Shown here piece after piece: positions 23,534-27,396 of a stretch of 44,052 bases of DNA (position 1 is the first letter of the stretch; the number at the start of each line of letters is the position of its first letter). The stretch is from an uncultured Prevotellaceae bacterium (GTDB lineage: Bacteria; Bacteroidota; Bacteroidia; Bacteroidales; Muribaculaceae). The notes under the pieces were generated by a model that saw only the letters and a list, made by a program, of their open reading frames with translations, ran no database searches and was not told the DNA's origin. A program made the position numbers and the translations under genes. The DNA is taken from positions 1-44,052 of the forward strand of contig ONKU01000021.1 of the NCBI GenBank assembly GCA_900318535.1, in the 5' to 3' direction.

Positions 23534-24775
23534 ATGGGACTCATTGACGATAAAAAACGTGTTAACGAAATAGAAGCGCTCGAGGAACGCGCCATTCTTG
23601 TGGGACTGATTACTCCCCAACAGGGCGAGGCCAAAGCCAAAGAATATCTAGACGAACTCGAGTTTCTCGCCGAAACGGCGGGAGCCACTACCGTGCGCAC
23701 TTTCCTGCAGCGGTGTGACGGCCCCAACAGCACCTCTTATGTGGGCAAAGGAAAACTCGAGGAAATTGTGGCCTATGTCCAAGAGAATGACATCAGCCTC
23801 GTTATCTTTGATGATGACCTCACACCCAAACAGGTCGCCTTTATCGAGAAGGCCGTCCAGGTCAAGACGCTCGACCGCACGAGCCTCATCCTCGACATCT
23901 TTGCCAAGCGTGCCCAGACGGCCAGCGCCAAGATGCAGGTCGAACTGGCCCAGTACCAGTACCTGCTGCCGCGACTGGCGGGCATGTGGACCCACTTGGA
24001 GCGCCAGCGAGGCGGTATCGGTATGCGTGGACCTGGTGAGACGCAGATTGAGACCGACCGCCGTATCGTCAAGACCAAAATCTCCCTGCTCAAGGAGAAA
24101 CTGGCCCAGCTCGACAAGCAAAAGATTACCCAGCGCAAGAACCGCGGCAAACTCACCCGCATCGCCCTCGTGGGCTATACCAACGTGGGCAAATCCACGC
24201 TGATGAACGTGCTGAGCAAGAGCGAGGTCTTTGCCGAGAACAAACTGTTCGCCACCCTCGACACCACGGTGCGCAAGGTGGTGATTTCAAACTTGCCTTT
24301 CCTGCTGACCGACACCGTCGGCTTCATCCGCAAGCTGCCCACCCACCTGGTGGAATCTTTCAAGAGCACCCTCGATGAGGTGCGCGACAGTGACATCCTC
24401 GTCCATGTCGTGGACATTTCCCATCCCCAGTTCGAGGAGCAGATCGAAGTGGTGAACCGCACGCTGCAGGAGGTGTGCGATGCCGGCGATAAGGAGATGA
24501 TCATGGTGTTCAATAAAATAGACCAGTTCACCCATGTTCCCAAGGATGAGGACGACCTCACCCCGCGTCTGCGCGAGAACATCCCCCTCGAGGAACTTGA
24601 GGAGACTTGGATGGCACGCATGGGCGAGAATTGCGTCTTCATCAGCGCCAAAAAGCAGCAGAATATCGACGCCCTCAGGAAGTTGCTCTATAACAAGGCC
24701 AAGGCTGTCCACACCGCCCGTTTCCCCTACAATGACTTCCTGTTCCAGACCTACGACGACCTGACCGACGAGTAA
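23534..24775 (+). CDS. hflX: ribosome-associated GTPase HflX
   Basis: HflX binds 50S subunits and splits stalled or hibernating ribosomes. The 413-residue product has the HflX N-terminal domain (TSYVGKGKLEEI, FDDDLTPKQ, DRTSLILDIFAKRAQTASAKMQVELAQ in part), the GMRGPGETQIETDRR signature, and a G domain: G1 GYTNVGKST (about 213-221), G3 DTVGF (about 258), G4 NKID. The C-terminal tail FPYNDFLFQTYDDLTDE is repeated in diverged form at 25906-25956 beyond the next gene, so the 3' end was involved in a recombination event. Confidence 0.97.
   Translation: MGLIDDKKRVNEIEALEERAILVGLITPQQGEAKAKEYLDELEFLAETAGATTVRTFLQRCDGPNSTSYVGKGKLEEIVAYVQENDISLVIFDDDLTPKQVAFIEKAVQVKTLDRTSLILDIFAKRAQTASAKMQVELAQYQYLLPRLAGMWTHLERQRGGIGMRGPGETQIETDRRIVKTKISLLKEKLAQLDKQKITQRKNRGKLTRIALVGYTNVGKSTLMNVLSKSEVFAENKLFATLDTTVRKVVISNLPFLLTDTVGFIRKLPTHLVESFKSTLDEVRDSDILVHVVDISHPQFEEQIEVVNRTLQEVCDAGDKEMIMVFNKIDQFTHVPKDEDDLTPRLRENIPLEELEETWMARMGENCVFISAKKQQNIDALRKLLYNKAKAVHTARFPYNDFLFQTYDDLTDE
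24721..24775 (+). repeat. hflX 3' end, left copy of a duplicated segment
   Basis: Bases encoding FPYNDFLFQTYDDLTDE and the stop are matched by 25906-25956, which encodes FPNNDFIYQTYDDLTE and a stop. The shared CAGACCTACGA core is identical; the rest differs mostly at third codon positions, so both were once functional hflX ends. Confidence 0.85.
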
Positions 24776-24835
24776 GAACGACCCTAAAGAAGTTGCATTT
24801 TGTTGATTTTCAATAGTTTAAAAGGAAAGTTGGAA

Positions 24836-25873
24836 ATGGCGAATAATAGAATCATTTCATTTGATGTTCTTAGGATTATTGCTGCATTCGCTGTCGTGAT
24901 TTTGCACGTTACAAGTCAACGATTGGATACTTCTTTTCCTTCAAGTGAGTGGGAAATCAGAACCGTGTATGACTCTTTTGTGCGATGGTGTGTACCGGTT
25001 TTTTTTATGATTTCGGGAGCATTGTTTTTGAATCATGGAAGAAAGCTCTCTGTAGGTAGATTATACAAAAAAAACATTCTCCATCTTATTTTCATCTTTT
25101 TTGTTTGGTCATTCATCTATGCAATCTATTTAGCGATTGTCAAATGCGATTATAGTATTGGTCATATATTATTAAGGATAATAGAAGGGCCTGTTCATTT
25201 TTGGTTTTTGAAGATACTGATTGGCTTATATGTTACGATTCCAATTCTAAGGATGATCACTCAGAATAAGCAATCAGAAGAATACTTTTTAATCGTAGCA
25301 TTAATTACAGCATTCGTTCTCCCAATGATTTTTACTTTCATCGGGTTGTATAACGAGTCATATAAATCATTTGCTCTTTATCATTATAATGCATATGGAA
25401 TAAGAATAGCATCGGGTTATGTCGGGTATTTTGTTCTTGGGCATTATCTCTATACTTATCGATTGTCTGGCCTCATGAAGAGATTTGTTTATATAATGGG
25501 TTTGTTCAGTGTGTTATCTGTCATATTTCTCACTCATTGGTATTCTCACCACATTAACGAATCAAGTGAGTTGTTTTATGACAATCTGAATGTTTTCACA
25601 TTGTTTGAGTCCATTGCTGTTTATTTGGCAATTATTGAATTTAAATTACCCACGAAGTATAATTCTTTAGTGTATAGGATATCAAATCTCAGTCTTGGTG
25701 TCTATCTTTCACATTTTCTAGTGTTAATGCTGTTTAACTACTTTGGAATAGATTCCAATTCATTTAATCCATTGTTTTTTATTCCGTGTTATAGTTTAAT
25801 CGTTTTTGTGTTATCATGTCTGGTGGTTTCATTAATAATGAAAATACCGATATTGAAAAAGTTGGTTGTGTAA
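24836..25873 (+). CDS. acyltransferase family 3 membrane protein (horizontally acquired)
   Basis: This protein likely transfers acyl groups to surface glycans or lipids in the inner membrane. The ATG at 24836 (MANNRIISFDVLRIIAAFAV) gives 345 residues; an upstream ATG at 24800 would add 12. The opening FDVLRIIAAFAVVILHVTSQ with its His is the hallmark of the OafA/WecH-type family, followed by about ten hydrophobic segments (VPVFFMISGALFL, FLKILIGLYVTIPIL, LGVYLSHFLVLMLFNYFG). The gene is clearly richer in A+T and uses different codons from its neighbours, and it is bracketed by two hflX 3' ends, so it was inserted. It has no clear promoter and may rely on hflX transcription. Confidence 0.88.
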   Translation: MANNRIISFDVLRIIAAFAVVILHVTSQRLDTSFPSSEWEIRTVYDSFVRWCVPVFFMISGALFLNHGRKLSVGRLYKKNILHLIFIFFVWSFIYAIYLAIVKCDYSIGHILLRIIEGPVHFWFLKILIGLYVTIPILRMITQNKQSEEYFLIVALITAFVLPMIFTFIGLYNESYKSFALYHYNAYGIRIASGYVGYFVLGHYLYTYRLSGLMKRFVYIMGLFSVLSVIFLTHWYSHHINESSELFYDNLNVFTLFESIAVYLAIIEFKLPTKYNSLVYRISNLSLGVYLSHFLVLMLFNYFGIDSNSFNPLFFIPCYSLIVFVLSCLVVSLIMKIPILKKLVV

Positions 25874-25905
25874 ACGAGTATTTTTTCTTGAATCAATATG
25901 ACTTG

Positions 25906-25956
25906 TTTCCAAACAACGATTTCATTTACCAGACCTACGATGACCTGACTGAATAA
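25906..25956 (+). pseudogene. remnant of an hflX 3' end
   Basis: In frame, TTT CCA ... TAA encodes FPNNDFIYQTYDDLTE*, matching the intact hflX C-terminus in 13 of its 16 residues. No further hflX sequence lies upstream of about 25890. It ends 11 bases before the ClbS/DfsB-like gene, so hflX and that gene were probably adjacent before the insertion. Confidence 0.85.
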
Positions 25957-25967
25957 GTGTTACTGAT

Positions 25968-26504
25968 ATGGCAAACCCGACAACAAAACAAGAATTGCTG
26001 GCATCCATGACCGATGGATATGCCAAACTGTGTGAACAAATCGCCAAAATGAGTGAAGAAGAAAAGACCCGGTCGTTTGACTTTGCCGCCGACCCAAAGA
26101 AATGCGGCGTGCGCTGGCAGTATGACCGTTGCCTGCGTGACCTGCTGATTCACCTTCACGAGTGGCAGGTGCTCATGTGCGATTTCGTGCAGAACATCCG
26201 TGATGGTCATCCCAGGGATTATCTGCCCGACGAGTATCGCCGCAACTACCACGAGATGGATAAGATGCTGGTCGAGAAGCATCAAGACACTGCATTGGAT
26301 GATGCCATCGGCCGTTTGCAACAGACGCAAGAGGAGATGCTGAGCCTCGCCGAGAGTTTCACTGAGGAAGAACTCTTCACCAAAGGCTATTACAAGAACA
26401 CTTATACGACCACCATGGCCGCTTATTTCGTGAGCGTCACCACCAGCCCCTATGGTCAGGCGCTAAAATTGCTCAAGACCCACCAGAAGAATTGCCGCAA
26501 GTGA
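25968..26504 (+). CDS. ClbS/DfsB family four-helix protein
   Basis: The 178-residue product matches the ClbS/DfsB (DUF1706) family: TTKQELLASMTDGYAKL at the start, RDLLIHLHEWQVLM in the middle, and TYTTTMAAYFVSVTTSPYGQALKLLK near the end. ClbS itself protects colibactin producers by opening the toxin's cyclopropane, and DfsB is a related DinB-like protein; most family members in Bacteroidales have no tested role. No colibactin genes are in the window. It follows the hflX remnant by 11 bases. Confidence 0.85.
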   Translation: MANPTTKQELLASMTDGYAKLCEQIAKMSEEEKTRSFDFAADPKKCGVRWQYDRCLRDLLIHLHEWQVLMCDFVQNIRDGHPRDYLPDEYRRNYHEMDKMLVEKHQDTALDDAIGRLQQTQEEMLSLAESFTEEELFTKGYYKNTYTTTMAAYFVSVTTSPYGQALKLLKTHQKNCRK

Positions 26505-26571: not shown

Positions 26572-27054
26572 ATGAAACGATTGTTGTATCTGGCCCTGAT
26601 GGGCATGTTGATGGTGACCTTCACCGGTTGTAAAGAGAATTATTCGGTGGGCGAGAAAGTAGGAAACCTGATTGAGTTTACCAAGAAAGGTGTTATTTGG
26701 GACTCTTGGGAGGGACGCATGAACCTTACCCAAACGGGTATGAACACGAGCGGTGCTCCTTTCCAATTCTCGTTTGACAATGACCGTGACGACCAGGATT
26801 CGCTGGTGCAACTGCTTTACCAGGCTCAGGTCGAGGGATGGAAAGTGAAACTCAAATACCATGCCGTGTGGGGCTTCAAGAACGTCTTCAACAACCGTGG
26901 CGAGACCGATTATTTTGTCGATGACGTCGAGGTGCTGGACAAGGATTTTGCCAACCCGCTCCGTCAGTTGGGTAGCGGTCAGGGCCGCGTGGTAGATACC
27001 GTTTGGGTCGTCGTTGATAAAGCCGAGATGCCCAAGCACATGAACGGCAAATGA
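26572..27054 (+). CDS. predicted lipoprotein, 160 residues, unknown function
   Basis: The start MKRLLYLALMGMLMVTFTGCKE gives a lipoprotein signal with lipobox FTGC (Cys at 20). The mature part is beta-rich and contains VGNLIEFTKKGVIWDSWEGR and LKYHAVWGFKNVFNNRGETDYFV. Similar small lipoproteins are common in Bacteroidales, sometimes carrying misleading enzyme names, but I see no catalytic motif. It stands alone between the ClbS-like gene and a convergent TPR gene. Confidence 0.75.
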   Translation: MKRLLYLALMGMLMVTFTGCKENYSVGEKVGNLIEFTKKGVIWDSWEGRMNLTQTGMNTSGAPFQFSFDNDRDDQDSLVQLLYQAQVEGWKVKLKYHAVWGFKNVFNNRGETDYFVDDVEVLDKDFANPLRQLGSGQGRVVDTVWVVVDKAEMPKHMNGK

Positions 27055-27111: not shown

Positions 27112-27396
27112 TTAGGGATTGTAGTAGTCCTTGTTGTAAAAGTCGAGCAGCTCCTGGATGTGGCGGTAGGCCTCGGCGGCAGGACCGTCGGGGTCGAGTT
27201 CCATCGACTCGAGGTAGCTGTTGAGCGCCATGCGCACGTTGCCTTGTTGGCGGTAGGCATTGCCGCGCAGGTAGTAGGCCATGGCGAGCGTTTCGCGGCC
27301 CGTTGTCTTGTTCTCGACAATTTCATTGGCGGCCGTGAGTGCATCTTCTCCCTCGCTGCGGGAGAGCATATCTTTGATTTCCTGTATGGTTTTCAT
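27112..27396 (-). CDS. small TPR-repeat protein
   Basis: The 94-residue product holds about two tetratricopeptide units: ETLAMAYYLRGNAYRQQGN and VRMALNSYLESMELDPDG, with a short helical N-terminus (MKTIQEIKDMLSRSEGEDAL). No signal peptide is present, so it is cytoplasmic. Such single-module TPR proteins mediate protein contacts; no partner is evident. It diverges from the TerB-like gene and has its own predicted -7 box. Confidence 0.75.
   Translation of the reverse strand: MKTIQEIKDMLSRSEGEDALTAANEIVENKTTGRETLAMAYYLRGNAYRQQGNVRMALNSYLESMELDPDGPAAEAYRHIQELLDFYNKDYYNP

Follow-up and report, generated by a model that had tools for sequence, protein, structure and literature searches.

The present study analyzes the interval behind hflX in a window of 44,052 nucleotides (contig ONKU01000021.1 of assembly GCA_900318535.1) from an uncultured Prevotellaceae bacterium placed by GTDB in the Muribaculaceae. 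Among the best 80 of at least 593 matching stretches in a genome collection, the nearest came from drafts labelled Muribaculaceae, Bacteroidales, Prevotellaceae, or Porphyromonadaceae, several of them of ruminant gut origin, and by these relatives the window would come from a gut bacterium. The genome of the window is referred to as G000, and the remaining G- and L-numbers denote compared genomes and loci. The hflX gene is intact and is the only full-length hflX match in G000; it is followed by an acyltransferase gene, by a second hflX end lacking the body of the gene, and by a DUF1706 gene at a spacing of 11 bp from the stop codon of that remnant (Table 1). The C-terminal end of hflX reads FPYNDFLFQTYDDLTDE and the remnant, which is probably untranslated, reads FPNNDFIYQTYDDLTE. 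The repeated hflX end had been reported in the first-pass annotation and was confirmed, with a start one base later than the 24721 given there; the reported length of 17 codons plus stop holds for the copy in hflX but not for the remnant.

Table 1. Features of the hflX locus in the window
Feature	Position	Strand	Supporting match
Intact hflX for a ribosome-associated GTPase; anchor on the left of the hotspot	23534..24775	+	TIGR03156, 423.9 bits
Present hflX 3′ end, repeat copy 1, 17 codons plus stop	24722..24775	+	
Cargo, AT-rich membrane acyltransferase of the O-acetyltransferase kind	24836..25873	+	PF01757, E 1.6e-36; phrog_3333 O-acetyltransferase, E 4e-18
Displaced hflX tail, 16 codons plus stop, without gene body	25906..25956	+	
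DUF1706 gene (ClbS/DfsB in the first-pass annotation), right neighbour at the empty site	25968..26504	+	PF08020, E 1.2e-35
160-aa protein; follows in synteny in part of the clade	26572..27054	+	No match in Pfam and NCBIfam scans
94-aa TPR-like gene	27112..27396	-	

In a repeat search positions 24722-24768 paired with 25906-25952 at 79% identity over 47 nt, and the local alignment of tail and remnant scored 45, compared with 17 on the opposite strand and a maximum of 24 in 100 dinucleotide shuffles. The hflX tail scored highest among 42 non-overlapping ORF tails of the window in the same test; one other tail scored at least 30 (34), a lysine-rich tail of what was read by eye as ribosomal protein S13, and it matched another lysine-rich gene. 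Over the first 15 codons tail and remnant differ at 2, 1, and 7 sites in codon positions 1, 2, and 3, with silent changes in 6 codons and replacements in 3. Because the differences fall mostly at third positions, as the first-pass annotation had observed, the two tails resemble alleles from different species more than the products of a recent duplication. Insertions with long target duplication also leave genes flanked by a duplicated stretch of target, but the hflX copies show a divergence like that of alleles from separate species and are not copies of one target. The AT-richness noted earlier for the inserted segment was borne out by base composition, with a GC content of 0.32 in 24776-25905 compared with 0.53 in the whole window. 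A phage or plasmid source of the acyltransferase gene was considered and rejected, as the 16 plasmid and 9 phage records that matched were all below 60% identity, and the eight matches listed of each kind were below 30%.

hflX was present in 93 of 101 genomes of the same genus, and 60 hflX-centred stretches were compared. The main set consisted of 39 genomes, G000 included and G023 excluded, in which hflX was at least 91% identical. Three of the 39 (G009, G044, and G131) have an empty site, where hflX and the DUF1706 gene are separated by 2, 12, and 12 bp, spacings that fit the earlier proposal that the 11 bases between remnant and DUF1706 gene are ancestral. Most of the remaining genomes carry unrelated fillings between the same flanks. 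In 17 genomes (18 with G133) the first gene behind hflX belonged to a single cluster of secreted proteins, three scanned members of which had dockerin, C10-peptidase, or esterase domains. The filling was a 134-aa membrane protein in six genomes, an acyltransferase of the window type in three (G000, G018, and G045), and two acyltransferases in tandem in G036; others were a Sir2 gene, a nuclease-like gene and, by eye, acetyltransferases and nucleotide-sugar enzymes. In G112, G123, and G129 the 84-251 bp behind hflX held no ORF of 80 codons, and in G054 the contig ended with no placeable gene behind hflX. The DUF1706 gene was absent from seven genomes (eight with G133), in which the TPR-like gene was the next conserved gene. 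The comparison proposed in the first-pass annotation, for empty sites and differing cargo between hflX and the DUF1706 gene, thus came out as anticipated there, and the interval behind hflX is a hotspot with varied fillings in one clade of a Muribaculaceae genus. In one draft, G133 (L074), the hflX reading frame was interrupted, which could be an assembly error or a pseudogene.

On a tree of flanking genes and the hflX body for 37 genomes, which left out G133 for its broken hflX frame and G020 because its hflX is cut by a contig end (G020 was also left out of the sliding and sister comparisons), fillings required 22 parsimony changes; the minimum possible was 17 because 12 of 18 states occurred in a single genome. 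Shuffled labels required 23 to 29 changes, none of 1000 shuffles being as low as 22, and the fillings keep some phylogenetic signal. G021 and G024 are the sisters of G000 (support of 1.0 with concatenated genes and 0.93 with the hflX body) and have other fillings, whereas the acyltransferase cargo of G000 is shared with the non-sisters G018 and G045, which group elsewhere in the tree. Matches to the acyltransferase were found in 19 of 101 genomes of the genus, and the five full-length matches of at least 55% identity (G000, G018, G045, G036, and G037), the ones whose genomic context was read, all stood behind an hflX tail; weaker matches were a split one of 40-54% in G014 and others of at most 43%. 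In G045 (L064) hflX, the acyltransferase gene, and the flanks were 100% identical to those of G018 over most of the shared stretch and a second hflX was present at 83%, so that this draft is possibly contaminated.

Association between cargo and hflX was tested in 11 sliding windows with 28 genomes and 50 same-filling pairs, and peaked in the last 45 nt of hflX (divergence ratio 0.72, p 0.002), but among the same 11 it also reached p 0.002 at 150-300 and p 0.018 at 1000-1100. Because upstream segments were also significant, ancestry contributes to this linkage, and as proof that tail and cargo travel together it was only partly useful, one upstream segment being equally significant.

Displaced hflX ends were not restricted to the window. 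The last 150 nt of each hflX were compared with the interval up to the next gene, or up to the contig end or 4 kb in G002, G021, G045, and G054, with a threshold score of 30; G133 and the empty sites G009, G044, and G131 (interval below 30 nt) were left out. Of the 35 near-clade intervals that could be scored, 7 held displaced pieces at or above this threshold (G000, G019, G036, G037, G057, G059, and G134), compared with 0 of 35 on the opposite strand. Within these, the score of G019 (31) was barely above its own shuffle maximum of 30, and the scored piece in G134 derives from about 150-125 nt before the hflX stop. G017 scored 26, higher than its 100 shuffles, but the match lay within the cargo gene and was left uncounted. 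Displaced pieces were sometimes stacked. By eye, a second, decayed hflX trace stands directly before the DUF1706 gene in G036 and G037, and the trace in G134 resembles it, with the same final bases and different cargo. A last trace, CTGAATAAG ... TGATATGGC, was likewise seen by eye before the DUF1706 gene in G018 and G045, but scored no better than shuffles. Three remnants, those of G000, G036, and G059, have their start points 47-54 nt ahead of the stop; for the rest these points are -32/-33, -90, and -150, where the query ends, or beyond. In G019 (L068), G057 (L070), and G127 (L037) about 200 bp with a hairpin-like stretch lie between hflX and a second tail-like stretch, a layout that by eye is possibly the leftover of a deleted cargo; the second tail of G127 was seen by eye and scored just 21, which was not significant. 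The generality of displaced tails beyond the clade was also considered and rejected, in that a search of the last 100 nt of hflX against 3 kb downstream found a score of at least 30 in 0 of 101 loci, and in 1 of 101 on the control strand, loci that are not all independent because some represent the same contig twice (e.g. L118/G003).

The one arrangement in which both joints are resolved is that of G037, which is sister to G036 with 96% identity in the hflX body and a different first filling. Of the sites that distinguish G036 from G032, G037 was donor-like at 22 of 136 as far as position 1130 in the alignment of hflX, at 7 of 8 between 1130 and 1170, and at 8 of 13 past 1170, and with G122 as the donor proxy the same three segments gave 23/134, 7/8, and 7/13. 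The switch to donor-like sites lies between 1124 and 1136, and sites beyond 1170 were mixed, with 4 of 13 like G036. Behind the switch there follows a secreted-protein gene with 78-79% protein identity to its counterparts in G032 and G122, and next a second DUF1706 gene, of which 32-33 codons are present and whose upstream sequence is like that of G032/G122. At codon 33 this gene breaks off at AAGGCC, a 6-base match between the DUF1706 gene of G122 and the resident hflX tail, and the resident tail resumes, with the older acyltransferase still standing behind it. G037 shows a homologous crossover at one end and a micro-homology joint at the other, seen as a single event in which G032 and G122 are stand-ins for the donor.

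Two pairs of sister genomes whose fillings differ also lose identity towards the end of hflX. The last approximately 105 nt differed at 17 of 96 sites in G021/G024, where 3.0 were expected, and at 20 of 102 in G036/G037, where 4.0 were expected, with no such loss in four pairs with the same filling. Recombination is detectable in the flanking core gene hflX in these two pairs, which together with the well-resolved event in G037 favors the homology-assisted recombination that the first-pass annotation had offered as one of its two explanations.

We consider the most probable reading, with a probability of roughly two in three, to be that cargo accretes at this core-gene hotspot by homology-facilitated illegitimate recombination, without a visible integrase. 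Pieces of foreign chromosome that carry an hflX 3′ end and a neighbouring gene would pair by homology with the conserved end of the resident hflX. If both flanks were homologous, a clean swap of the filling would result; if homology was confined to the hflX end and a few matching bases sufficed to join the other, the tail of the resident hflX would be pushed downstream, and a remnant would then separate the new cargo from the gene that follows. hflX would stay functional because the incoming piece supplies a complete 3′ end, and co-directional cargo may be transcribed by read-through from hflX. It is possible that the DNA enters by transformation. ComEC and DprA families are present in the G000 genome, which allows for transformation, but these families are widespread and do not demonstrate competence; a search of the same genome for Ku gave no match. 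Against the mechanism, the nearly common start of the remnants in G000, G036, and G059 is unexpected for a random joint. The mixed sites past 1170 in G037, the share of ancestry in the linkage of cargo to hflX, and the phylogenetic signal of the fillings likewise count against it.

We infer that the remnant of G000 arose in the same way as that of G037. The front tail of G000 differs from its sister G024 at 11 of 99 sites, where 8.1 were expected, and from its sister G021 at 19 of 96, where 7.4 were expected, and an incoming segment may have brought this tail along, as suggested earlier, the tail being foreign by comparison with G021 and not clearly foreign by comparison with G024. There was no clear source for the remnant, which had a best identity of 81% with four genomes and 79% with its own tail. 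Because G018 and G045 share the acyltransferase gene and perhaps the trace, G000 may have acquired the block in finished form through plain homologous exchange: a block of the tail or part of it, the acyltransferase gene, the remnant, and the start of the DUF1706 gene would have entered G000 by double homologous recombination, the remnant being older and formed elsewhere. We rate this at slightly less than an even chance; it concerns the window only and complements the accretion of cargo by homology-facilitated illegitimate recombination, and the likelihoods of the two are not exclusive. The acyltransferases of G018/G045 have 81-82% protein identity to that of G000, the trace CTGAATAAG ... TGATATGGC seen by eye occurs in these non-sisters, and the front tails of G000 and G024 are alike, all as expected for such an import, but the DUF1706 proteins of G018 and G000 are only 84% identical, the trace is no better than shuffled sequence, and import of a finished block leaves the origin of any remnant unexplained.

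The same layout of tail, cargo, and tail would be produced if a tail-bearing piece circularized and then integrated through one homologous crossover within the tail (Campbell type), and in E. coli linear DNA is reported to circularize and recombine by a single crossover (PMC3240628). We regard this as unlikely: in G037 the donor-like sites at 1136-1154 lie upstream of the point at which the resident tail resumes, 1161, and a circle closed at the G037 joint is insufficient for this reason, barring later exchange. Slightly less likely again is site-specific integration, in which non-autonomous cassettes consisting of an hflX tail and a gene would be moved by a recombinase acting in trans, with tail and remnant as the attachment sites. 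The target is the 3′ end of a gene and is rebuilt on insertion, the start points of the three remnants mentioned above are only a few bases apart, and the pairs G036/G037 and G021/G024 lose identity at roughly one position, all of which would suit such a system. However, the other remnants start at scattered positions, the joint in G037 lies within the DUF1706 gene at a 6-base match, and there is neither an identical attachment core nor a fixed joint, tail and remnant of G000 being only 79% identical with a short longest shared run. Because three remnants start within a few bases and the others are scattered, the site-specific cassette reading is kept at low probability. A bolder version, an unrecognized recombinase-driven cassette system that would use the hflX 3′ end as its attachment site and insert cassettes of one tail and one gene always at the front, the tails forming an ordered record of insertions, seems to us improbable to a marginally greater degree.

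Recombinases were also looked for directly. None was recognized among 52 cargo ORFs read by eye or in a Pfam scan of eight representatives from 6 of the 18 cargo clusters. A search confined to tyrosine-recombinase families found seven matches in the genome, all on contigs other than that of the window, and a viral collection contained no exact match to a degenerate pattern of the hflX tail. These results speak against site-specific integration, and with them the other explanation of the first-pass annotation, an element targeting the hflX 3′ end, was abandoned as the leading view insofar as it would act by its own integrase. Least probable of all, and hardly to be credited, is a local tandem duplication of the hflX end with insertion of a gene between the copies, or an assembly artefact; either would be conceivable in one draft genome by itself, but most differences between the tails are at third positions, the pattern found between species, and similar layouts occur in several other genomes of the genus.

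Both this type of hotspot and the mechanism are already known, and what is new is a clear instance anchored on a housekeeping gene. Effector-immunity modules of the Vibrio cholerae T6SS are displaced sequentially, and a process like homology-facilitated illegitimate recombination has been proposed for them, with Rhs loci mentioned alongside for the displacement of older 3′ modules (PMC5361080). The hflX site is similar in having an anchor of upstream homology, an illegitimate other end, and older 3′ material shifted downstream into an array. In V. cholerae an effector locus provides the anchor and genes that have been shifted persist as immunity genes, whereas at hflX a housekeeping GTPase serves as anchor, different genomes hold unrelated cargo, and the displaced tail is apparently a non-coding scar. 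Hotspots without mobile elements that recombine at flanking core genes have also been described, and the account in PMC5635113 resembles the hflX site in its variable fillings between conserved genes and in exchange extending into the flanking core gene; no integrase is recognized there, nor was one at hflX among the 52 cargo ORFs read by eye and the eight representatives scanned. The model given there is double homologous recombination, which alone would leave no displaced tails, unlike the hflX site. Homology-facilitated illegitimate recombination, with one homologous and one illegitimate end as at hflX, has been reported for competent species and for conjugation in E. coli (PMC3240628, PMC2884548). 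The cases in these papers are laboratory events or strain comparisons accompanied by a proposal, whereas hflX offers a natural series at one site across species. A literature search for hflX as a genomic island or integration site found nothing in the papers covered, and one on natural transformation and homologous recombination in Muribaculaceae found nothing relevant.

Hotspots without recognizable mobile elements are common, but the first entry of non-homologous genes into them is seldom visible. Displaced ends are scars that reveal the direction and order of events and tell an additive insertion from a clean swap, and the scar in G037 exposes both joints. A survey of genomes for gene tails that are both displaced and diverged could gauge how frequently genes are gained by this route.

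Several duplications were observed further downstream on the right side of the hotspot. In G020 (L093), at about 1.7-3.2 kb behind hflX, copies of the TPR-like gene stand on both sides of the DUF1706 gene; they are identical at 240 of 282 nt and are followed by a stretch identical at 138 of 140 nt, which breaks off inside the next gene. This layout looks like a right-anchored mirror case of the hflX arrangement. The TPR-like gene is present in more than one copy in G009 and G044 as well. Behind the DUF1706 gene, G009 (L046) has two further copies and G044 (L059) three, one of them partial, in both cases around other inserts, and G044 also has a 52% match to residues 326-396 of hflX.
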